Shown: one piece after another, positions 12,918 to 29,938 of the stretch
Layout of the letters: every line of letters begins with the position of its first letter
How positions within the stretch are numbered: position 1 is the first letter of the stretch
From: Microbacterium sp. Marseille-Q6648
Lineage (GTDB): Bacteria > Actinomycetota > Actinomycetes > Actinomycetales > Microbacteriaceae
DNA length: 64,000 bases
Direction: 5' to 3'
Assembly (NCBI RefSeq): GCF_943181415.1
Contig: NZ_CALPBZ010000002.1
Location: 1-64,000, forward strand
The notes under the pieces: model-generated
The model's database searches: none
The model's input: only the letters and a program-made list of their open reading frames with translations
What the model was told of the DNA's origin: nothing
Program-made: the position numbers and the translations under genes

Positions 12918-13928
12918 TCAGGCGCCGTCGCGGTCGCCGTCGCGACGGGCGCGGGTCTGCTCCGCACGCTGCGCGAGCAGGTCGTCCGCGGGATAGCCGA
13001 CCTCGGTGAGGGTGAGGCCACGCGCGGCGAGCACCTTCACCTCGGGCACCCGCTCGGCCTCGTCGCGGATCTCTGCGACGTCGGCCACGGCCAGGCGTCC
13101 CTCGCCGACGGCGACGCACGCTCCCACGAGGGCCCGCACCATACTGTGGCAGAACGCATCGGCCTTGACGTTGGCGACGAGCACGCCGTCGGCCTCCCGC
13201 CGCCAGTCGAACTCCAGCAGCGTCCGGATCGTGGTGGCCTCGGGCCGGGGCTTGCAGTACGCGGCGAAGTCGTGCAGGCCGATGAGACTGCGGGCGGCAG
13301 CATCCATCGCCGCGACGTCCAGCGACGAGCGCACCGTCGTCGTGCGGTGCCGCTCGAGGGGGTCGTAGCCGCTCTCACGGTCGGCGATCCGGTACGCATA
13401 CCGGCGCCACACCGCCGAGAACCGCGCGTCGAATCCGGCCGGGGCGAGCGCGGAGCGCACCACCGCCACGTCGGCATACTGGCCCAGCACGCCCGTGATG
13501 CGCGCCGCGAGCGCCGCGGCGGGCTGCGCGGCCCCGGGCGCCGGCGCGGGTGCGGGGCCCGGAGCCGGACGGATCACAACTCCTGCAGCCGGATCCGGTC
13601 CCGCCGCACCATCCCCGCGGAATTCCGCGGTTCTTGCGGCCACCGGCCCCGCCGTCGCGGCCGGGGTGCAGGAGTTATGATCCGCCGCACGCCGGCCCCG
13701 GACGTTCAGGAGCCGCTGCTGCTGGTCGGCGTCGAGGTCGAGGTGAGCGACCTGGTCGCTGGCGTGCACGCCGGCGTCGGTGCGGCCGGCGACCACCAGC
13801 CGCGGCTCGCCGCCGAGGATGCGGGCGATCGCGTCCTCGAGGGTGCCCTGCACGGTGCGAAGACCCGGCTGGCGAGCCCAGCCGCGGAAGTGCGTGCCGT
13901 CGTAGGCGATGTCGAGCCGGATGCGCAC
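12918..13928 (-). CDS. truA: tRNA pseudouridine synthase A carrying an in-frame repeat insertion
   Basis: TruA converts uridines 38-40 of tRNA anticodon arms to pseudouridine. The catalytic Asp51 lies in 'VAGRTDAGVHAS', and 'FDARFSAVWRRYAYRI', 'LIGLHDFAAYCK' and 'FCHSMVRALVGACV' follow, so the enzyme looks active. At 336 residues it is 40-60 longer than usual, because a palindromic repeat element (13571-13683) is translated as residues about 82-120 ('ADHNSCTPAATAG' through 'PAAGVVIRP'), followed by an Ala-Pro run. The site falls in the variable loop between the catalytic motif and the Tyr motif, where family length varies. Ends at a strong terminator; otherwise a single-gene unit. Confidence 0.92.
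   Translation of the reverse strand: MRIRLDIAYDGTHFRGWARQPGLRTVQGTLEDAIARILGGEPRLVVAGRTDAGVHASDQVAHLDLDADQQQRLLNVRGRRAADHNSCTPAATAGPVAARTAEFRGDGAAGPDPAAGVVIRPAPGPAPAPAPGAAQPAAALAARITGVLGQYADVAVVRSALAPAGFDARFSAVWRRYAYRIADRESGYDPLERHRTTTVRSSLDVAAMDAAARSLIGLHDFAAYCKPRPEATTIRTLLEFDWRREADGVLVANVKADAFCHSMVRALVGACVAVGEGRLAVADVAEIRDEAERVPEVKVLAARGLTLTEVGYPADDLLAQRAEQTRARRDGDRDGA
13571..13683. repeat. Palindromic repeat element, copy 1 (inside truA)
   Basis: A 113-bp element with 17-bp terminal inverted arms, GGATCACAACTCCTGCA at 13571-13587 and TGCAGGAGTTATGATCC at 13667-13683 (one mismatch in the stem). The core CCGCGGAA begins 44 bases from the left end, here as part of a symmetric CCGCGGAATTCCGCGG. 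Two further full copies lie at 17964 and 19183. It is open in the truA frame and contributes about 38 residues. Confidence 0.9.
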
Positions 13929-14040
13929 CCGCCCAGCCTAACCGCGCCCGCCCGGCCCAACCGTGCCCGCCCGCCTCCCCAGGACGAGCGGGCACGACCC
14001 CAGCTTCACCCCCGCCGTCTTCGCGACCGAGCCCCTGCCC

Positions 14041-14883
14041 TCAACGGACGATGGCGGTGAGCCCACGCAGGCGGTAGAGCATCTGCTCGCTCACCGACCC
14101 CAGCAGGAATCGTCGCACCGCGCCGCGCCCGTGGGATCCCATCACCGTCATCCGTGCCGTCACCGCATAGGCGCTCAGGACGTCGGCGGCGGCACCCTCG
14201 TCGACGTGGCGATCCACCTGCAGGTCGGGGTAGGTCTGCGCGAGACCGGCGAGCGAGATCGCCTGCGCCTCCTCGGCGAGCTGCCGCAGCGCATCGACGT
14301 AGCTCGCCGGCTGCAGCCCCGGCGAGCGCGGCACCTCCATGGGCTGCCACGCGGTGACCGCGATCAGCGGCTCGCCGATCCGGTCGGCCTCGGCGGCGGC
14401 GAACGCGATCGCCTTCTCGCTGAGCTCCGATCCGTCCACCCCGACCACGACGCCGGCGCGTTCGCCGTGCTCCGAGTCGGGGACGACGACGACCGGGCAG
14501 TGCGCGCCGGCGCTGATGCGGATGCCGTGCAGTCCGCGCGCCGGGCCCTTCCCGCCCGGGCGGTAGTCACTGCCGATCACCAGCAGTCCGGCATCCTTCG
14601 ACGCCTCGACGAGCTTCGTGACCGGGTTGCCGTGATCCACGCGAGTGGTCACAGGCACGCCGTGATAGCGGATGCTGTCCGCCTCGGCCGCGAGATGCTC
14701 GGCGGCTGCCGCCTCGATCTCGGTCACCAGCGCCGCCTCGCCCACGACGCCGACGGCGCCGCCGATGATGCGGAAGAGTTCGAGGGGCGTGTGCGTCGCG
14801 GCGGCCCGTTCAGCCGCCCATTCGACGGCGCGGCGCCCCGCCTCGGTCGGAACCACGCCGACGACGATCTTCTTCTTCGACAT
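14041..14883 (-). CDS. Universal stress protein with two UspA domains
   Basis: A 280-residue tandem UspA protein. Domain 1 ('KKKIVVGVVPTEAGRRAVEW' to 'CPVVVVPD') and domain 2 ('GVVVGVDGSELSEKAI' to the C-terminus) each have the Rossmann-like core. The ATP-binding pattern is complete in domain 2 ('GSHGRGAVRRFLLGSVS') and altered in domain 1 ('GSDYRPGGKGPARG'). Such proteins bind ATP and help cells through hypoxia, starvation or oxidative stress, by unknown means. It is a lone gene; about 110 bases separate it from truA, and its upstream region contains a minisatellite-like array, so its promoter must sit within or beside repeats. Confidence 0.92.
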   Translation of the reverse strand: MSKKKIVVGVVPTEAGRRAVEWAAERAAATHTPLELFRIIGGAVGVVGEAALVTEIEAAAAEHLAAEADSIRYHGVPVTTRVDHGNPVTKLVEASKDAGLLVIGSDYRPGGKGPARGLHGIRISAGAHCPVVVVPDSEHGERAGVVVGVDGSELSEKAIAFAAAEADRIGEPLIAVTAWQPMEVPRSPGLQPASYVDALRQLAEEAQAISLAGLAQTYPDLQVDRHVDEGAAADVLSAYAVTARMTVMGSHGRGAVRRFLLGSVSEQMLYRLRGLTAIVR

Positions 14884-14947
14884 CTCGGCACTCCCTTCGG
14901 GACTGTCTGGATAGGTGTGCTTCGACGCTATGCGCGGCGGCCGCGAC

Positions 14948-15163
14948 CGACCAGGGCCGAAAGACCCAGTGGCCGGAAGTCCCGCTGCGCTCAGAGAACC
15001 CGTGCGCGAAAGACCGGTGCGCCGGTAGGCCCAGTGCGCCGGAAGAGCCCCACACCCCGGAAAACTCAGAGCGCGGAAGACCCGCTGCGCTCAGAAAGCC
15101 GGTGCGCTGAAAGACCCGGTGTCTGAAGAACCTCGTTCGCCGGAGGACCGTGCGCCGGCTGAC
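14948..15163. repeat. Degenerate 15-17 bp tandem array
   Basis: About 13 imperfect tandem units of the kind AAGACCCGGTGCGCCGG run from 14948 up to the stop codon of the HprK-like gene at 15164; the last unit (CTAGTGCTCCGG) includes that stop codon. No open gene is supported here. The array fills nearly the whole space between the stress-protein start and the next gene. Confidence 0.7.
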
Positions 15164-16555
15164 CTAGTGCTCCGGCTCTCCCACCGGCGCGACCAGGTGC
15201 AGGTCGACCAGTTCGGCGACGAACGCCGCCACATCCTCGGCGACGCGGTGGTCGAACGCGCCGGAATGCTCCGTGGCGCGCGCGCTCAGCTGGGTGAGGG
15301 TCACCGGCTCGTCGAGCCAGTCCCACAGCACCGCCGCTGTGCCCTCGAGCAGGCGCGGCCGTCCCTCGACGTCGTCGAGAGCGAGGGCGTAGACCCGGTC
15401 GTCGCGGTCGACCCACGCGACGTCGTCGCGACGCCGGAGGTGCGGTTCGTCCGAGACCAGCAGCCCTGCATCCAGCAGGGCGCCGACGGCGACGAGCACG
15501 GCGGGAGCGGCATCCGGCCCGGGAGGAGTGCCATAGGCGGCCACGGCGGCCGCCGCCAGCTCGTCGAGGCTCGCACCGTCCGCCGCGCGCCAGACAGCCG
15601 GCGCGATCCCGGCCAGCACCCGCACCGTGCCGCGCCCTCGGGTGTCCACGCTCAGGACGGCGACGCGATCGGGGTCGTGCAGCTCGATGTGGTCCGCCCA
15701 GTCGGCCCGGCGAAACCGCGGCGGCGCGCCCGGTGTGTTCGCGACGGCCTGCGGCAGGGCCTCGGATGCCGGTTCCCACCCGCTCTGGGCGGGCGTCGTG
15801 CGCGCGGGCAGCACCGCGGAACCGGCGTCCATGAGCGCAGCGATCACCGGCACCAGCTCGTCCGCCTCGCGGTACACCACGCGCCGGACGCCGCCGGCGG
15901 CTGAGGCGACGTCCGCGATGAACTGCAACGGCGCGTCGGCGTGGGTGAGGAAGCTCGACTGCTCCACCAGGTCGCCGAGCGCGTCTCCGAGGTCGAGGAC
16001 CTCCACCTCCGGCGCTCCGTCGTGGTCGGGCCGCCGGTCCAGCAGCACGATGGCGCACACGCGCAGCGTCGCGTCGGGTAGCGGCCGCAGACCGGCGGCC
16101 GAGGGCGGCACCTGCGCCTTGGGCAGCGCGGGATCCTCGATGACCGACAGCGGCTTGCGGTAGGCGCGCACGCGGCCGGATTCCTCGATGGCGACGGTCT
16201 CGTCCGAGACGTAGCCGAACTCCCGCCCCAGGACGCGCGAGGCGGTGGTCTTGCCCCGTCCCGACGGACCGACGAGCACCACCACCTCGCCGGTCTCATT
16301 CGCGAGGCCCGCTGCGTGCAGCATCCACGCCTGCCCGCGTGCCGCGTCGATGGCGGTGATCGTCACAAGCTGCGACAGCCCGGACAGCATGCTCTCGACG
16401 GGAGCGTCGGCGGGGGTGACGACGACATCCGGGATGCCGTCGGCTGCGGCATCCGCCCAGGCCCGACGGATCGCGGCGGCGCGGACCTCATCCAGACCGC
16501 TCAGGTCGATCCCGATGCGCGCACCGACCGCGTCGACGCAGAACACCTCGGGCAC
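15164..16555 (-). CDS. HprK-like P-loop protein with PqqD-like C-terminus
   Basis: About 463 residues from GTG 16555. A Walker A motif 'GPSGRGKTT' (about 96-104) preceded by 'MLHAAGLA' and followed by 'FGYVSDETVAIEESG' matches HPr kinase-like proteins that phosphorylate serine or act in peptide-natural-product clusters. The C-terminal 90 residues ('RVYALALDDVEGRPRLLEGT' onward) resemble a PqqD-type peptide-carrier fold. No obvious precursor peptide or synthetase is nearby, so the partner is unknown. The frame stays open to 16666, but those extra residues are encoded by tandem repeat DNA, so I start at the GTG before 'PEVFCVDAVG'. No clear ribosome binding site supports any start. Confidence 0.75.
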   Translation of the reverse strand: MPEVFCVDAVGARIGIDLSGLDEVRAAAIRRAWADAAADGIPDVVVTPADAPVESMLSGLSQLVTITAIDAARGQAWMLHAAGLANETGEVVVLVGPSGRGKTTASRVLGREFGYVSDETVAIEESGRVRAYRKPLSVIEDPALPKAQVPPSAAGLRPLPDATLRVCAIVLLDRRPDHDGAPEVEVLDLGDALGDLVEQSSFLTHADAPLQFIADVASAAGGVRRVVYREADELVPVIAALMDAGSAVLPARTTPAQSGWEPASEALPQAVANTPGAPPRFRRADWADHIELHDPDRVAVLSVDTRGRGTVRVLAGIAPAVWRAADGASLDELAAAAVAAYGTPPGPDAAPAVLVAVGALLDAGLLVSDEPHLRRRDDVAWVDRDDRVYALALDDVEGRPRLLEGTAAVLWDWLDEPVTLTQLSARATEHSGAFDHRVAEDVAAFVAELVDLHLVAPVGEPEH

Positions 16556-16575
16556 ATCCGAAGTGTAGGGCCTGG

Positions 16576-16825
16576 CGCCGGTCACCCGGCACGCGGCGGC
16601 CGGATGCGGGCGCGCACTGGCCGCCGATCCCCCGCCGGCCACCGGCTTCGCCCGACTGTGCGTCACGAGGCGGCCGCATGCGAGCGCGCGGCGGCGGCCG
16701 GGTGCCGCCGGCCACCGGCCTCGCCCGATAGTGCGTCACGCGGCGGCGGCATGCGAGCACCGGCGGCGGCCACCTGCTGGTGCCGCCGTCCGCCGTCCGC
16801 CGGCCTCGCCCGAGGGTGCGTTCCG
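16576..16825. repeat. 73-85 bp tandem repeat, about three units
   Basis: GTCAC at 16581, GTGCGTCACG at 16658 and 16731, and the decayed GTGCGTTCCG at 16816 mark successive units, each holding GCGGCGGC(C)GCATGCGAGC and GCCGGCCACCGGCCTCGCC blocks. The array fills the gap between the double-GNAT gene and the HprK-like gene and contains no supported gene. Confidence 0.7.
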
Positions 16826-16884
16826 TACTCGCGGAAGGCGCCGGGTTCAGAACTCGCGGAAGGCGCGCGGTCAGAACTCGCGGA
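16823..16884. repeat. 24-bp tandem repeat duplicating the stop region of the GNAT gene
   Basis: The block TCAGAACTCGCGGA occurs at 16847 and 16871, and a decayed form (CCGTACTCGCGGA) at 16823. The copy at 16871 is the stop codon and last codons of the double-GNAT gene, so the 3' end of that gene has been tandemly duplicated outward, with 24-25 bp spacing. Confidence 0.7.
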
Positions 16885-17917
16885 CGAGGGCGCGGTCCCG
16901 CTCGGTCGCGATGAACCCGAGCCGCTCGTACAGCGTGTTCGCGCCGGTAGGGCTCTCGGTGTCGACATCGAGCACGGCTTTCGCCAGGCCCGCATCCGTC
17001 ATAGCCCTCAGGGTCCGCGCGACCACCCGCGGCGCAAGTCCCTGCCCACGTCGGTCGCGGACGACGCCGATGAGGTCGATGTAGGAGTTCGTCGCGCCGA
17101 GCGTGACCCAGTCGTCCTCGTTGACGGACGCCAGGCAGAAGGCCACGATCCGACCGTCGGCGTCGAGGGCGAGCGTCGACAGGTCCGGCCGCAGGAACGG
17201 CCCGCCGACGAACTTCTGCCACCGGTCGGGACTGGACGGCAGGCTTCCCCAATGATCGCGGAAGGCGTCGTTGCGCGCCTCTCGGGCATCCTCGGCGCGA
17301 TCGGCGCTGTAGGGCACGAGGGTGATGCCCGCGAGGTCCTCCAGTTCGGCGACGGCCACGGAGTTGTCCCGCACCATCGAGGTGAACCACCGCGCGGTGC
17401 GAAGTCCGAGAGCCTCCGCGAGAATCACGGCGCCGTCGTTCCCGTCGCTGGCGTAGACGTCGATCTCCCCCGGAAGCGTCGAACCCGATGCCGCCAGCTG
17501 CTGCAAGGCCCGGGAGTACTGCCACCTCATCAGCTCGGCGCCGATGCCGCGGCGGCGCCAGGTCGGGTAAACGGCTCCCTGGAGGTAGGACTTCACGCGG
17601 GTCGTCGTGTCGGGATGCCGCATCGCCGTCCCTGCCGCGACGACGGTGCCGTCGTGCGCGATCGCCAGGATCGTGTCGACCGTGTGGTCGACGTCGGGCA
17701 GGTCGAACGTGTCCTCGACCTCCTCGCGCGGCGTCACCCACGTCGGGTGGTCGACCTGATCGGCGGCGGCGAAGACCGCGTGCATGGCGTCGATGTCATC
17801 GCGCGTCGCGCCTCGCCACCGCGCGATGTCGGGATGCCGCGGCTCAGCCGGTCCGGACGCGTCGGCCCCGGCATCCGCGAGACGCTGGGCGAGGGGTGCG
17901 GGCGCGGTGTCAATCAC
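16871..17917 (-). CDS. Double-domain GNAT N-acetyltransferase
   Basis: A 348-residue protein with two GNAT folds, as in MshD-like enzymes. The first domain has the acetyl-CoA loop 'YPTWRRRGIGAEL' near residue 120, the second 'VVRDRRGQGLAPRVV' near 290 followed by 'TESPTGANTLYERLGF'. Proteins with this layout usually have one active and one degenerate domain; here both retain Arg/Gly-rich pyrophosphate loops. The acceptor is unknown; a mycothiol or antibiotic link cannot be shown. The last codons and stop are duplicated downstream as 24-bp tandem repeats. It faces away from the nuclease-like gene, with a palindromic repeat element 47 bases before its start. Confidence 0.88.
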   Translation of the reverse strand: MIDTAPAPLAQRLADAGADASGPAEPRHPDIARWRGATRDDIDAMHAVFAAADQVDHPTWVTPREEVEDTFDLPDVDHTVDTILAIAHDGTVVAAGTAMRHPDTTTRVKSYLQGAVYPTWRRRGIGAELMRWQYSRALQQLAASGSTLPGEIDVYASDGNDGAVILAEALGLRTARWFTSMVRDNSVAVAELEDLAGITLVPYSADRAEDAREARNDAFRDHWGSLPSSPDRWQKFVGGPFLRPDLSTLALDADGRIVAFCLASVNEDDWVTLGATNSYIDLIGVVRDRRGQGLAPRVVARTLRAMTDAGLAKAVLDVDTESPTGANTLYERLGFIATERDRALVREF

Positions 17918-17963
17918 CCCGCCACCCTACGCCCGCCGCCATCCGCCCCATCCTCGCGACGCC

Positions 17964-18064
17964 GGATCACAACTCCTGCACCTCGGCCGGTCACCCCGAG
18001 CGCGACCCGCGGAAACACGCCACTGCGCCGCGGCCGACCCCGCCGGGTGCAGGAGTTGTGATCC
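17964..18064. repeat. Palindromic repeat element, copy 2
   Basis: A 101-bp element with perfect 17-bp arms: GGATCACAACTCCTGCA at 17964-17980 and TGCAGGAGTTGTGATCC at 18048-18064. The core CCGCGGAAA begins 43 bases from the left end. It lies between the divergent GNAT and nuclease-like genes, 105 bases before the latter's ATG. Confidence 0.92.
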
Positions 18065-18169
18065 GCCCACGCCCCACTCCCCTCCTCCCCAACCCTCCCC
18101 GGCAGCACCGTTGTGCACAGCCGCCCGGGGACGACCGTCGCCGCCCGCGCCCGGTGCGAGCGTCGACGG

Positions 18170-19036
18170 ATGCAGGAAGCGACGTTGCCGCGAGTCCTCA
18201 CCCGGGCCGGGCTCATCGAGGCGGGCTACACCGCGAAGACGATCACCCGGGACGTCAAGCGCGGGGTGCTCGTGCGCCTGCGACGCGACCGTTACGCGAT
18301 CACGCCGTCGGCGGATGCCGACACCGCGGTGCGCATCGGCGGGCGGGTCTCTTGTCTGACCGCGATCGCGGCGACGGGGGCGTTCACCATGGGCGACGAG
18401 CGCGTGCACGTGCAGGTCGAGCGACGCGGTTCCCGTCTTCGCAGCCCGAACACGAGCAAGGAGCGCTGGCTGCGCAGCCGCGCGTCGACGGCGAAGATCC
18501 GGCTCCACTGGAGCGACTGCGCAGAGACCGGAGGCTCACTCGAGTCCGTCCCGTTCGAGGACGCCCTCCGGCAGTTCATCCGGTGCCAGCCACCGCGGGA
18601 GGTGGTCGCGACTCTCGACAGCCTCCTGCGTTCGCGCACGGTGAAGCGACGGCAGCTACGCGAGGTGTTCGCCTCGCTTCCGCCGCGCTATCGCGTCCTG
18701 CTCACGCTCGTCGACCCGCGCGCCGAGTCGGGACCGGAATCGCTCCTCCGGCTCATGCTGCGACAGCTCGGCATTCCGTTCGAGATCCAGGTGAGCATTC
18801 CGGGCGTCGGACGCGTCGACTTCGTCATCGGCGGCGTGCTCATCATCGAGTGCGACAGCCGCGCACACCACGAGGGGTGGGAGTCGCAGCAGAAGGATCG
18901 CATCCGCGACGTCGAGGCGGCGCGCCTCGGCTACGCCACCATCCGCCTCTTGGCCGCGGACGTCATGTACCACCCCGACGACGTCCGCGACGTGCTCCGC
19001 GACGTCGCGCGGGCATGGGCGCCCAGGGCCGCCTGA
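18170..19036 (+). CDS. AbiEi-N/DUF559 protein with a Vsr-like nuclease fold
   Basis: A 288-residue protein. The N-terminal 60 residues ('LPRVLTRAGLIEAGYT' and 'VKRGVLVRLRRDRYAI') look like the winged-helix start of AbiEi-type proteins; the C-terminal 110 residues form a DUF559/PD-(D/E)XK-like domain with Glu190, Asp217 in 'GVGRVDFVIG', and Glu227/Asp229 in 'LIIECDSRAHH'. Such domains are relatives of the very-short-patch repair endonuclease. ATG 18170 is chosen because the helix-turn-helix begins shortly after. Palindromic repeat copies lie 105 bases upstream and from 82 bases downstream, so the gene is bracketed by them. Nuclease activity and any part in repeat movement are inference. Confidence 0.85.
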   Translation: MQEATLPRVLTRAGLIEAGYTAKTITRDVKRGVLVRLRRDRYAITPSADADTAVRIGGRVSCLTAIAATGAFTMGDERVHVQVERRGSRLRSPNTSKERWLRSRASTAKIRLHWSDCAETGGSLESVPFEDALRQFIRCQPPREVVATLDSLLRSRTVKRRQLREVFASLPPRYRVLLTLVDPRAESGPESLLRLMLRQLGIPFEIQVSIPGVGRVDFVIGGVLIIECDSRAHHEGWESQQKDRIRDVEAARLGYATIRLLAADVMYHPDDVRDVLRDVARAWAPRAA

Positions 19037-19117
19037 CCCGCCTCCTGCGTCGTCACAGAGCCGGAACCGCTCACGCCGGCTCCCGGCGTTGCTCCGGCTC
19101 GTCTCGCGCTCGGCTGG

Positions 19118-19133
19118 GGATCACAACTCCTGC
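19118..19133. repeat. Solo left arm of the palindromic repeat
   Basis: GGATCACAACTCCTGC, identical to 16 of 17 bases of the full arm, lies 65 bases before and in the same orientation as the left arm of copy 3, with no matching right arm of its own. It looks like a truncated copy or a nested insertion. Confidence 0.75.
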
Positions 19134-19182
19134 GTCCGCCGGACGGCTCCTCGCAGACCGAGCCGCCCGGGGAGGCATCCGA

Positions 19183-19284
19183 GGATCACAACTCCTGCAC
19201 CGCACGGCGGGAGGAGTGCGCGCACCCCCGGTTTTCCGCGGGCACGGGCGGACCGGAGGCCGCGACGTGCAGGAGTTGTGATCC
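19183..19284. repeat. Palindromic repeat element, copy 3
   Basis: A 102-bp element with perfect arms: GGATCACAACTCCTGCA at 19183-19199 and TGCAGGAGTTGTGATCC at 19268-19284. Its core reads TTTTCCGCGG, that is CCGCGGAAAA in reverse, and begins 43 bases from the right end, so relative to copy 2 this element is inverted. Confidence 0.92.
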
Positions 19285-19407
19285 GCCCCGGCGCGAATCG
19301 CGCACGCGCAGGAGTTGTCATCCACCCCCGCGCGGATCGCGCACGCGCAGGGGGTGTGGTCCGCCAGACACGGGCGCGAATGCCGCCACGGGCAGGGGCT
19401 GTGACCC
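19268..19407. repeat. Tandem series of decaying right arms
   Basis: Starting with the right arm of copy 3, related 17-mers recur at 19307 (CGCAGGAGTTGTCATCC), 19346 (CGCAGGGGGTGTGGTCC) and 19391 (GGCAGGGGCTGTGACCC), spaced 39, 39 and 45 bases. The intervening DNA (CGCGAATCGCGCACG and its CGCGGATCGCGCACG variant) is also repeated, so the unit is about 39 bp and loses identity with distance. The whole gap 19037-19511 holds only these repeats and the rplQ terminator. Confidence 0.8.
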
Positions 19408-19440
19408 CGCGCCCCGCCCGCATCACCCGCCCGGACGCAG

Positions 19441-29582: not shown

Positions 29583-29938
29583 AGGTTCAGACCTCCTTCA
29601 CGGGCGCCGTCGGCGATCGCCGCGACCCGGCCCGCGTAGCGGTTGCCACCGCGGTCGAAAACGACATCCTCGATGCCGGCGGCCTTCGCGCGCTCGGCGA
29701 CGAGCTCGCCGACCTTGCGCGCCTTGGCGGTCTTGTCACCGTCGAACGAACGCAGGTCCGCCTCGAGGGTGGAGGCCGAGGCCACGGTGTGACCCTTCGC
29801 GTCGTCGACCACCTGGACGAAGACGTGACGGGCCGAGCGGGTCACGACGAGGCGCGGACGCAGCTCGGTGCCGACGACCTTCTTGCGAAGGCGGGCGTGA
29901 CGGCGCGTACGCGCCTGAGTCTTGGTCTTGACAGCCAT
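29579..29938 (-). CDS. rplR: 50S ribosomal protein L18
   Basis: uL18 binds 5S rRNA in the central protuberance. The 119-residue protein is normal: '[20 protein letters not shown]', '[16 protein letters not shown]' and the C-terminal '[20 protein letters not shown]'. It follows rplF by two bases. Confidence 0.97.

Follow-up and report, generated by a model that had tools for sequence, protein, structure and literature searches.

A dispersed family of short palindromic elements paired with AbiEi-DUF559-type nuclease genes in Microbacterium and its relatives

Two of the three palindromic repeats in a 64,000-nucleotide stretch of DNA from Microbacterium sp. Marseille-Q6648 (the window) flank a gene for a putative nuclease, which the initial annotation of the repeats had overlooked. 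Comparison with related genomes shows that nuclease genes of this type are paired with palindromes. As the genes of many relatives are flanked by a different repeat of their own, our finding suggests a formerly unrecognised pairing of an enzyme with small mobile DNA sites. Searches of an open library gave no report of a nuclease-palindrome pairing. The features in the window are as follows.

12918-13928, minus strand: truA, tRNA pseudouridine synthase, 336 aa, open through copy 1 (ORF; Pfam PF01416; alignment)
13571-13683, plus strand: element copy 1, 113 bp, lying within the frame of truA; arms at 13571-13587 and 13667-13683 (the right one with one mismatch), core CCGCGGAATTCCGCGG at 13615-13630
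17940-19430, no strand: element-nuclease-element block, approximate extent; three relatives lack it at this position, where the GNAT gene and rplQ adjoin the gap
17964-18064, plus strand: element copy 2, 101 bp, on the upstream side of the nuclease gene, with the core CCGCGGAAACACG
18113-19036, plus strand: gene for a predicted endonuclease, AbiEi-like wHTH and DUF559/MTES_1575 (PD-(D/E)XK, EDxHD-like), 307 aa from GTG (Pfam; homologues; PDB profile; AbiEi matches)
19118-19134, plus strand: extra left arm, one mismatch, downstream of the nuclease gene (arm search)
19183-19284, plus strand: element copy 3, 102 bp, on the downstream side of the nuclease gene, with its core in the opposite orientation to that of copy 2
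19307-19323, minus strand: extra right arm, two mismatches (arm search)
19346-19362, minus strand: possible decayed right arm, four mismatches (arm search)
19391-19407, minus strand: possible decayed right arm, four mismatches (arm search)

The three palindromic copies described initially are real and paired, and they belong to a dispersed family that shares the arm GGATCACAACTCCTGCA. Eight sites in the window match this arm with at most three mismatches, against 0.14 expected, and none of 100 shuffles attained eight. The arms are conserved in the paired copies as annotated, except that the right arm of copy 1 reads GTTATG instead of GTTGTG. The core, an imperfect palindrome near the centre of the element, is indeed turned round in copy 3, and the interior is as variable as had been claimed: its mean identity was 0.59, compared with 0.54 after shuffling (102 pairs from 15 elements, omitting the three pairs among three tandem copies), whereas the arms were 0.94 identical over all 105 pairs. 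The extra arms at 19118 and 19307 are nested around copy 3. The sites at 19346 and 19391 are uncertain as decayed arms, because a further site with four mismatches occurs elsewhere in the window, at 29584.

The initial annotation had also named two circumstances that would tell against a mobile family, namely confinement of the arm pair to the window and origin of the copies by one local duplication. The genome contains 35 arm sites with at most two mismatches, and the reversed control gave none. Local duplication was rejected as the source of the family, because the interiors are unrelated, near the shuffled level, except within the tandem cluster at C1:1095742-1096187. Outside that cluster, no recent copying can be seen, since the interiors of the dispersed copies are barely alike. 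None of the 59 dispersed elements tested falls in a gene-like frame (60 loci were fetched, and one, L404, was too short). The arms alone form no hairpin of their own (folds at 0 and -0.3 kcal/mol), and the window had no match in Rfam at the gathering scores. Scanning genome contigs with GATCAYAACTCCTGCA gave, among the matches listed (at least 80), one match apiece in scattered phyla, which we took as chance; a viral scan gave 17 stretches with a single match in each.

The protein encoded between copies 2 and 3 has an AbiEi-like winged-helix N-domain and a DUF559/MTES_1575 (Vsr-like) C-domain, and an in-frame ATG at 18170 is a possible true start. E209, D236, H253, and D262 are invariant in 24 aligned proteins, and the first two are kept in 63 of 63; equating the four residues with the EDxHD motif is our own reading of the sequences. 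A PDB profile search matched the mobile intron protein 3r3p (E 0.0097), which we take to be I-Bth0305I, and a search with the single sequence gave AcrF11 alone (E 0.86). At a threshold of E<=0.1, 15 of the 24 family members were matched by AbiEi_4 (best 2.8e-9) and 21 by one of the PADLOC models for AbiEi; the match of the window protein to AbiEi_4 was weak, at 18.4 bits under a cut-off of 25. The structure predicted from the single sequence was unusable (mean pLDDT 33). Proteins of this type occurred in 84 of 197 genomes of the class at E<=1e-15, and to our knowledge none has a tested function. No relative was found in the viral contigs; three plasmid records, all from Tsukamurella (33-41% identity), and one phage record (47% of the query) contained relatives. 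The neighbouring genes in the window encode a GNAT acetyltransferase and rplQ, and no AbiEii nucleotidyltransferase toxin partner was seen there. The earlier statement that no transposase is linked to the repeats holds within what was examined, but a nuclease gene is linked to them.

For the pairing of nuclease genes with arms, a locus passed when the same 14-base word was found in an upstream pair and in a downstream pair with a score of at least 36 out of 42. The threshold was chosen after the null had been inspected, and counts at 35 are also given. Loci of close homologues and paralogues were taken best first from the homologue list, not at random. At 36, 32 of 41 close homologues and 10 of 22 paralogues passed, whereas this score was reached by 0 of 29 truA loci, used as controls, and by 1 of 252 shuffles. 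Lowering the threshold to 35 gave 34/41, 12/22, 1/29, and 3/252, respectively. Among the 20 usable loci from other families of the class, 10 passed, versus 0 of 140 shuffles; L445 and L450, cut by contig ends, were counted as misses, L448, which scored 36 with flanks overlapping on a short contig, was left out, and loci of the own family (4 of 7 passing) were kept separate. Over both tests, 1 of 392 shuffles passed. The misses were thus 9 of the 41 close homologues, 12 of the 22 paralogues, and 10 of the 20 loci from other families. Shuffling preserved dinucleotides in both of these tests; in the flank analysis of G051 and of the spacing classes, two-base blocks were shuffled.

The arm word varies from protein to protein, and its similarity is best tracked by identity over residues 22-135 (rho 0.31; 0 of 999 permutations). 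G051 differs at a syntenic locus in its nuclease allele and, together with it, in the palindromes on both sides. Dispersed copies are predictable from the arms found next to the gene: the G075 arm had 14 sites in G075, 7 in G078, and 0-3 in ten other genomes, and the G138 arm had only 4 sites in G138, two of which adjoin the gene, and 0 in eleven others. The mere presence of a homologue at E<=1e-20 does not discriminate, as it was seen in 20 of 21 element-rich genomes and also in 23 of 25 others. In G501, G503, and G556, the exact-pattern elements adjoin none of the listed nuclease matches, and one decayed pair with TGCAGGAGTT lies upstream of a nuclease match in G501. G003 has elements and gave no nuclease match at E<=1e-20.

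Three relatives (G359, G310, and G332) have the same neighbouring genes as the window and lack the whole element-gene-element block. Their empty site contains neither AACTC nor GAGTT, no arm pair, and no arm at all; therefore, insertion there did not require an element already in place. Solo copies outnumber blocks in the genomes examined.

Copy 1 lies in the frame of truA, at a loop that is shorter in 28 aligned relatives, and by this alignment it is an insertion in the gene relative to them. Rows were obtained from 28 of 29 relatives (none from L182), and L172 is out of frame past the loop. The location in truA had not been mentioned in the initial annotation. The best relative is 83% identical around truA, and neither a precise junction nor a target-site duplication could be defined; at the listed copies in the own genome, no target-site duplication was seen by eye.

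The two arms of an element are about 6, 7, 8, or 9 helical turns apart, in spacing classes of 63-64, 73-75, 83-88, and 94-96. The best-fitting period was 11.0-11.1, not exactly 10.5, in a sample of 143 dispersed spans, which were among the first places listed per genome, and 43 flank spacings, all transcribed manually; the control consisted of uniform draws in which kinship was ignored. One orthologous element measures 62 bases in G192 and 83 in G149, G051, and G086, a difference of two turns. In orthologous elements, the outer arms were 0.81 identical, compared with 0.64 in the adjacent flank; the outer arm alone counts as evidence of conservation, because ascertainment makes the 9-base arm core identical. 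No clean empty site was found for the element at G192:2304169: in G051 there is a copy with an altered arm, and at this point the matches listed for G086, G272, G149, and G279 are interrupted.

From the pairing, the occurrence of matching arms upstream and downstream of the gene, the covariation of arm and protein, the dispersal, the spacing, the truA insertion, and the indel block, all read from sequence, we propose a two-part endonuclease/palindrome system that resembles REPIN/RAYT in its working and uses an unrelated enzyme, and we regard this reading as reasonably probable. One part would be the gene for the DNA-binding nuclease, and the other a short element of two inverted arms, specific in sequence to that nuclease, which sits on either side of the gene and as solo copies over the genome. 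Two nuclease subunits would read the two arms, chiefly through the N-domain and on the same face of the helix, and the nuclease domain would cut or nick at the arms. Such cutting could then lead to copying of the elements, and of the element-gene-element block, to new places, for which RAYT and REPIN serve as the model, as RAYTs are thought to move REPINs.

An explanation by regulation alone seems unlikely to us. The protein would then be an orphan AbiEi-type regulator, and the inverted repeats its operators, located at its own promoter as well as at other genes and forming a selected regulon that was not spread by the nuclease. AbiEi proteins have been described as binding two 23-bp inverted repeats, bending DNA, and repressing their own promoter (PMC7319586), and operators would suit the helical phasing of the arms, the position of the tested dispersed elements outside genes, and the outer arms being the best-conserved unascertained part at orthologous sites. 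However, equal arm pairs are also found downstream of the nuclease gene, one copy is within truA, the catalytic residues are invariant or nearly so, and the indel comprises the entire block with both elements.

A homing endonuclease gene sits in its own recognition site, and the empty allele holds an intact target. Homing of this type, with the nuclease cutting block-less alleles, repair copying the block in, and solo elements as pre-existing targets or remnants, is in our estimate improbable, more so than operators. It would agree with the similarity to 3r3p, with the pairs of elements, 5.5 kb or 2.7 kb apart, that G086 and G192 have in place of the single one in G149 and G051, and with the EDxHD homing enzyme I-Bth0305I, described as dimerising on a target of nearly 60 bp (PMC3943268), but the armless empty site in three relatives and the excess of solo copies over blocks speak against it. 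Least credible of all is an origin as MITEs of the classical kind, derived from an unrelated DDE transposon that ends in inverted repeats, with the nuclease genes as hitch-hikers. Our elements fit this in being short, dispersed, and intergenic, with terminal inverted repeats and one insertion in a gene; yet many nuclease subfamilies in several families have their own arm on both sides, the interiors are not conserved, and the listed own-genome copies show no target duplication by eye. The statistical link of the arms to DUF559 genes disfavours this explanation.

Whether the proposed two-part system extends over the class is a claim on which we are evenly balanced. Each AbiEi-DUF559 nuclease gene would mobilise its own private bipartite palindrome, both changing specificity together and moving as a block, as a genome parasite or a domesticated system that evolved independently of REPIN/RAYT. 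An abundant 'domain of unknown function' would then make up one half of a single system, and many unexplained intergenic palindromes the other. The arms next to each gene give the nuclease family specific candidate DNA sites, legible in the sequence; thus, binding and cutting could be assayed together on dozens of natural enzyme/site pairs. A lone enzyme kept with short palindromic repeats would also be known from a second, unrelated example, so that comparison could address why REPIN/RAYT-like pairs persist. Should cleavage be confirmed, the family would be a source of nucleases with long, naturally diversified bipartite sites.

Several known systems share parts of this arrangement. Rickettsia palindromic elements and ERIC/RU repeats occur in genes, and like them copy 1 is a palindromic repeat within a still-open reading frame; we know of no nuclease pairing for either, and the comparison is by description. 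AbiE, a type IV toxin-antitoxin system in which the AbiEi antitoxin is followed by the AbiEii toxin, has the AbiEi-type winged-helix domain and inverted repeats upstream of the gene, whereas here the C-domain is a nuclease and arms are also downstream and dispersed. By our reading, the EDxHD homing enzymes resemble the present proteins in conserved residues of the E, D, H, D type and in the profile similarity to 3r3p, and a long target with a dimer would be a further likeness. The present proteins differ in the AbiEi-like DNA-binding part, in whole palindromes flanking the gene instead of a split target, in dispersed solo sites, and in an empty site with neither an intact target nor an arm. 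The initial annotation had considered the repeats mobilised or structurally selected, REPIN-like, and not a simple duplication. As a way of working, this agrees with the dispersed inverted arm pairs around a variable spacer, the truA insertion, the indel block, and the conserved outer arms, but membership of the REP/REPIN family was rejected, because RAYT (PF01797) was absent from all 20 genomes searched (the control search was positive in 5 of 14 known genomes) and the arm has no hairpin. Each REP end is an imperfect hairpin-forming palindrome, and RAYT is a Y1 transposase, in contrast to the DUF559-type nuclease with its AbiEi-like domain; in addition, REPINs number hundreds of copies, against up to 29 exact-pattern copies per genome here, where the arm spacing is helically quantised and elements are on both sides of the gene. 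REPINs are described as extragenic, with inverted ends of about 16 bp and a variable spacer, clustering beside a distinctive single-copy gene, the enzyme and the repeat diverging together (PMC3116915). The present elements likewise have conserved inverted ends around a variable spacer and are dispersed and extragenic, with the truA copy as the exception, and as with RAYT, the repeats beside the enzyme gene are specific to their cognate enzyme, which here belongs to a different family.

The three palindromic copies described in the initial annotation were found at the coordinates it reported. Their 17-base arms are present as claimed, except that the right arm of copy 1 has one mismatch. The features discussed here are as follows.

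12918-13928, minus strand: truA, which contains copy 1 and whose reading frame stays open
13571-13683: copy 1
17964-18064: copy 2
18113-19036, plus strand: nuclease gene (307 aa), with copies 2 and 3 on its two sides; not mentioned in the initial annotation
19183-19284: copy 3

Allowing up to three mismatches, the 17-base arm is found eight times in the window (0.14 expected). Copy 3 is surrounded by two extra nested arms, followed by two more that may be decayed arms. The arm pair also occurs beyond the window, with 35 arm sites at up to two mismatches in the 3.49-Mb genome of eight contigs (18 forward and 17 reverse; reversed control, 0). Among 15 paired elements compared, arm identity was 0.94, and interior identity was 0.59 vs 0.54 when shuffled (102 pairs). 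Folded as single strands, the three copies in the window outperform shuffled sequences by a wide margin (z -6.2 to -7.6), and the arm on its own gave no folding in the computation.

Several other arrangements were observed in this genome (G000; contigs C1 and C2; L numbers denote loci taken for comparison). The copy at G000:C2:262924-263012 (L011) lacks the CCGCGG core and has GTTGACGT twice in its interior; a possible ATG start falls partly within its right arm. Extra-arm arrays at G000:C2:555680-555900 (L014) and 582405-582567 (L019), with three right arms spaced 33 bases and left-arm pairs at 43 and 51 bases, look like tandem duplications of an arm together with its flank. Two elements at G000:C1:1084976-1085061 and 1085152-1085237 (L417) have arms of the type of genomes G306 and G012, GGCGCATAACTCCTGCACC, not GGATCACA, as if they were remnants of another nuclease subfamily. 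Short direct repeats occur in the window at 14957-15107 and 16632-16843, with unit spacings of about 50 and 73-85 bases.

The exact arm is almost confined to this genome: at up to one mismatch, 2 of 149 genus genomes have it, own genome counted. Of 366 genus genomes, 94 have the looser pair CTCCTGCA..TGCAGGAG; 82 of these have one to three occurrences, a chance-like level (the reversed control reaches 4), and 12 of the 366 have 5-29 copies. A pair with 9-base arms was found in 11 of 299 family genomes and 4 of 85 genera (reversed controls, 0). In several species, CTCCTGCA elements have arms of a second type (like ATCTGAGGAGTT / AACTCCTCAGAT) only tens of bases away (near position 1000 of L370, L373, L384, L390, L392, L394, and L395); thus, element families nest or cluster.

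The 307-aa protein matches the Pfam families MTES_1575 (29.8 bits, below the cut-off of 38.2), DUF559 (23 bits, above the cut-off of 20.6), and, weakly, AbiEi_4 (18.4 bits; cut-off 25). An alignment of 24 proteins shows no variation at R57, A72, G89, E209, R213, Q226, D236, H253, or D262 and almost none at E246 and D248; E209 and D236 stay constant across 63 proteins. AbiEi_4 matches 15 of the 24, and one PADLOC AbiEi model matches 21 (E ≤ 0.1). Profile comparison with the PDB picked out an endonuclease-like entry, 3hrl, at E 2.6e-7, and a mobile intron protein, 3r3p, at E 0.0097.

In a protein search (E ≤ 1e-20) of 46 genomes that we chose, 43 had nuclease homologues. Because these comprised 20 of 21 element-rich and 23 of 25 other genomes, presence alone says nothing about a link to the elements. 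The position of the gene was more informative. Two pattern-found elements enclose the first- or second-ranked homologue in G149, G086, G192, G443, G554, G505, G441, and G011. In genomes without the CTCCTGCA pair, palindromic pairs with other arms adjoin the nuclease gene; GGCGCACAACTCAGGC in G106, CTCCACAACTCCGGAGA in G075, and CGGGCGTAACTCAGTCT in G138 are examples. An AACTC/GAGTT arm pair with at least 16 of 22 complementary bases was found at 26 of 41 homologue loci, at 13 of them on both sides, vs 3 of 22 paralogue loci, 0 of 29 truA loci, and 0 of 820 shuffles.

We also used a motif-free test, in which the same 14-base arm must pair both upstream and downstream of the gene (score out of 42). 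At a threshold of 36, homologues passed in 32 of 41 cases and distant paralogues in 10 of 22, against none of the 29 truA loci and 1 shuffle in 252; lowering the threshold to 35 gave 34, 12, 1, and 3. Paralogues meant as controls therefore carry arms of their own, such as GCACAACTTCGGAC (L345) and TGCGCAACTCAGGA (L346). The test was also passed at 10 of the 20 loci usable in other families of the class, vs 0 of 140 shuffles, and at many of these loci the upstream and downstream elements are equal in length (73/73, 90/90, 77/77, and 75/75). The gene-side arm of G075, searched in 12 genomes, had 14 sites in G075 (eight making four pairs by position), 7 in G078, whose nuclease gene has a similar arm, and 0-3 in the other ten (reversed control, 0-1). 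That of G138 had four sites in G138, two adjoining the gene, and none in eleven other genomes, which is in line with the prediction of dispersed copies, but weakly.

Where the arm test was passed (42 loci), residues 22-135 were the part of the protein whose identity best tracked the similarity of the arms (rho 0.31; 0 of 999 permutations). The relation was weaker for the nuclease domain (rho 0.19; 26 of 999) and absent for residues 136-200 (255 of 999). Because arm similarity follows residues 22-135 best, the N-domain is likely the reader of the arm.

From AACTC start to GAGTT end, 43 flanking pairs span only 63-64, 73-75, 83-88, or 94-96 bases (class means 63.7, 73.6, 85.2, and 95.0; step about 10.4 bp). 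The best-fitting period was 11.0 (coherence 0.85; 0.83 at 10.5); 2000 uniform sets scanned across periods from 8 to 16 reached at most 0.57, in statistics that ignore relatedness among loci. The 143 dispersed spans (typed) are 70-74 and 81-86, plus single cases of 62, 92, and 97. One orthologous element has 62 bases in G192 vs 83 in G149, G051, and G086, two turns apart. Such classes would be expected if protein bound two sites facing the same side of the double helix, and we infer that duplex DNA is recognised by two subunits.

In three relatives (G359, G310, and G332), rpoA, rplQ, and the GNAT gene are in the same order, and the rplQ-GNAT gap of a few hundred bases contains no DUF559 gene, no AACTC, and no GAGTT. 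Copy 2, the nuclease gene, and copy 3 therefore form a single indel unit. Loss of this block by recombination between its two elements should leave one element behind. Elsewhere, two elements enclose 5.5 kb in G086 and 2.7 kb in G192, and G149 and G051 have a single element with the same outer flanks. The 5.5 kb (L409 2539-7863) is filled by a 1774-aa ORF, the start of which resembles a secretion signal by eye.

At a syntenic locus next to a gene judged adenosine-deaminase-like by its sequence, without a search, G086, G192, and G149 have closely related nuclease alleles and ACTCCTGCA arms. In G051, the neighbour gene is 86-96% identical, the nuclease gene is mostly 44-75% identical (83-86% in one 100-column window), and both flanking palindromes have AACTCCTC arms. 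In G051, the enzyme and its arms have thus changed in concert.

The truA loop holding copy 1 is shorter in all 28 aligned relatives; G359 and G310 have the same or nearly the same residues before the loop, followed by a short arm-free linker. The copy inside truA is unusual, because 0 of 59 dispersed elements tested lie in a gene-like frame, in a test that also failed to flag the truA copy and can thus miss such cases. At 17 orthologous element sets from four species, identity in the outer arm, the 8 arm bases beyond the ascertained 9-mer, was 0.81 vs 0.64 in the adjacent flank (-20 to -9), 0.72-0.74 in the farther flank, and 0.65-0.71 in the interior.

Some observations run against the pairing. 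G501, G503, and G556 have exact-pattern elements, none beside any listed nuclease match, although one of the G501 matches has a decayed pair with TGCAGGAGTT upstream of it. G003 has elements and no nuclease match at E ≤ 1e-20. The arm test fails at roughly half the loci, both for the distant paralogues and for the other families. Neither an insertion junction nor a target duplication could be defined, and the strongest rival explanation gives the elements an operator role only.

We found no report of a DUF559 nuclease paired with palindromes, and nothing on AbiEi together with DUF559, among the papers listed in our searches of an open-access collection, which lacks most subscription journals and all bioRxiv preprints. 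By title and opening of the abstract, papers matching parts of the arm sequence were unrelated; by listing and opening of the abstract, those on DUF559 as a palindrome-linked or mobile endonuclease did not concern such pairing, and the MTES_1575 papers, judged by listing, gave no report of it. Known systems offer parallels: AbiEi places two monomers on two 23-bp inverted repeats and bends the DNA (PMC7319586); the EDxHD homing enzyme I-Bth0305I acts as a dimer on a target near 60 bp (PMC3943268); and REPINs, paired palindromic repeats with a spacer between two conserved inverted ends, adjoin single-copy RAYTs, their tyrosine transposases, movement by a RAYT dimer being a prediction (PMC3116915). 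Putting the AbiEi, I-Bth0305I, and REPIN/RAYT facts together, the likeliest working of the nuclease-palindrome pair is that two nuclease subunits would sit on two phased arms and cut at the arms; our guess is that the elements would then be copied into new sites via repair or strand transfer.
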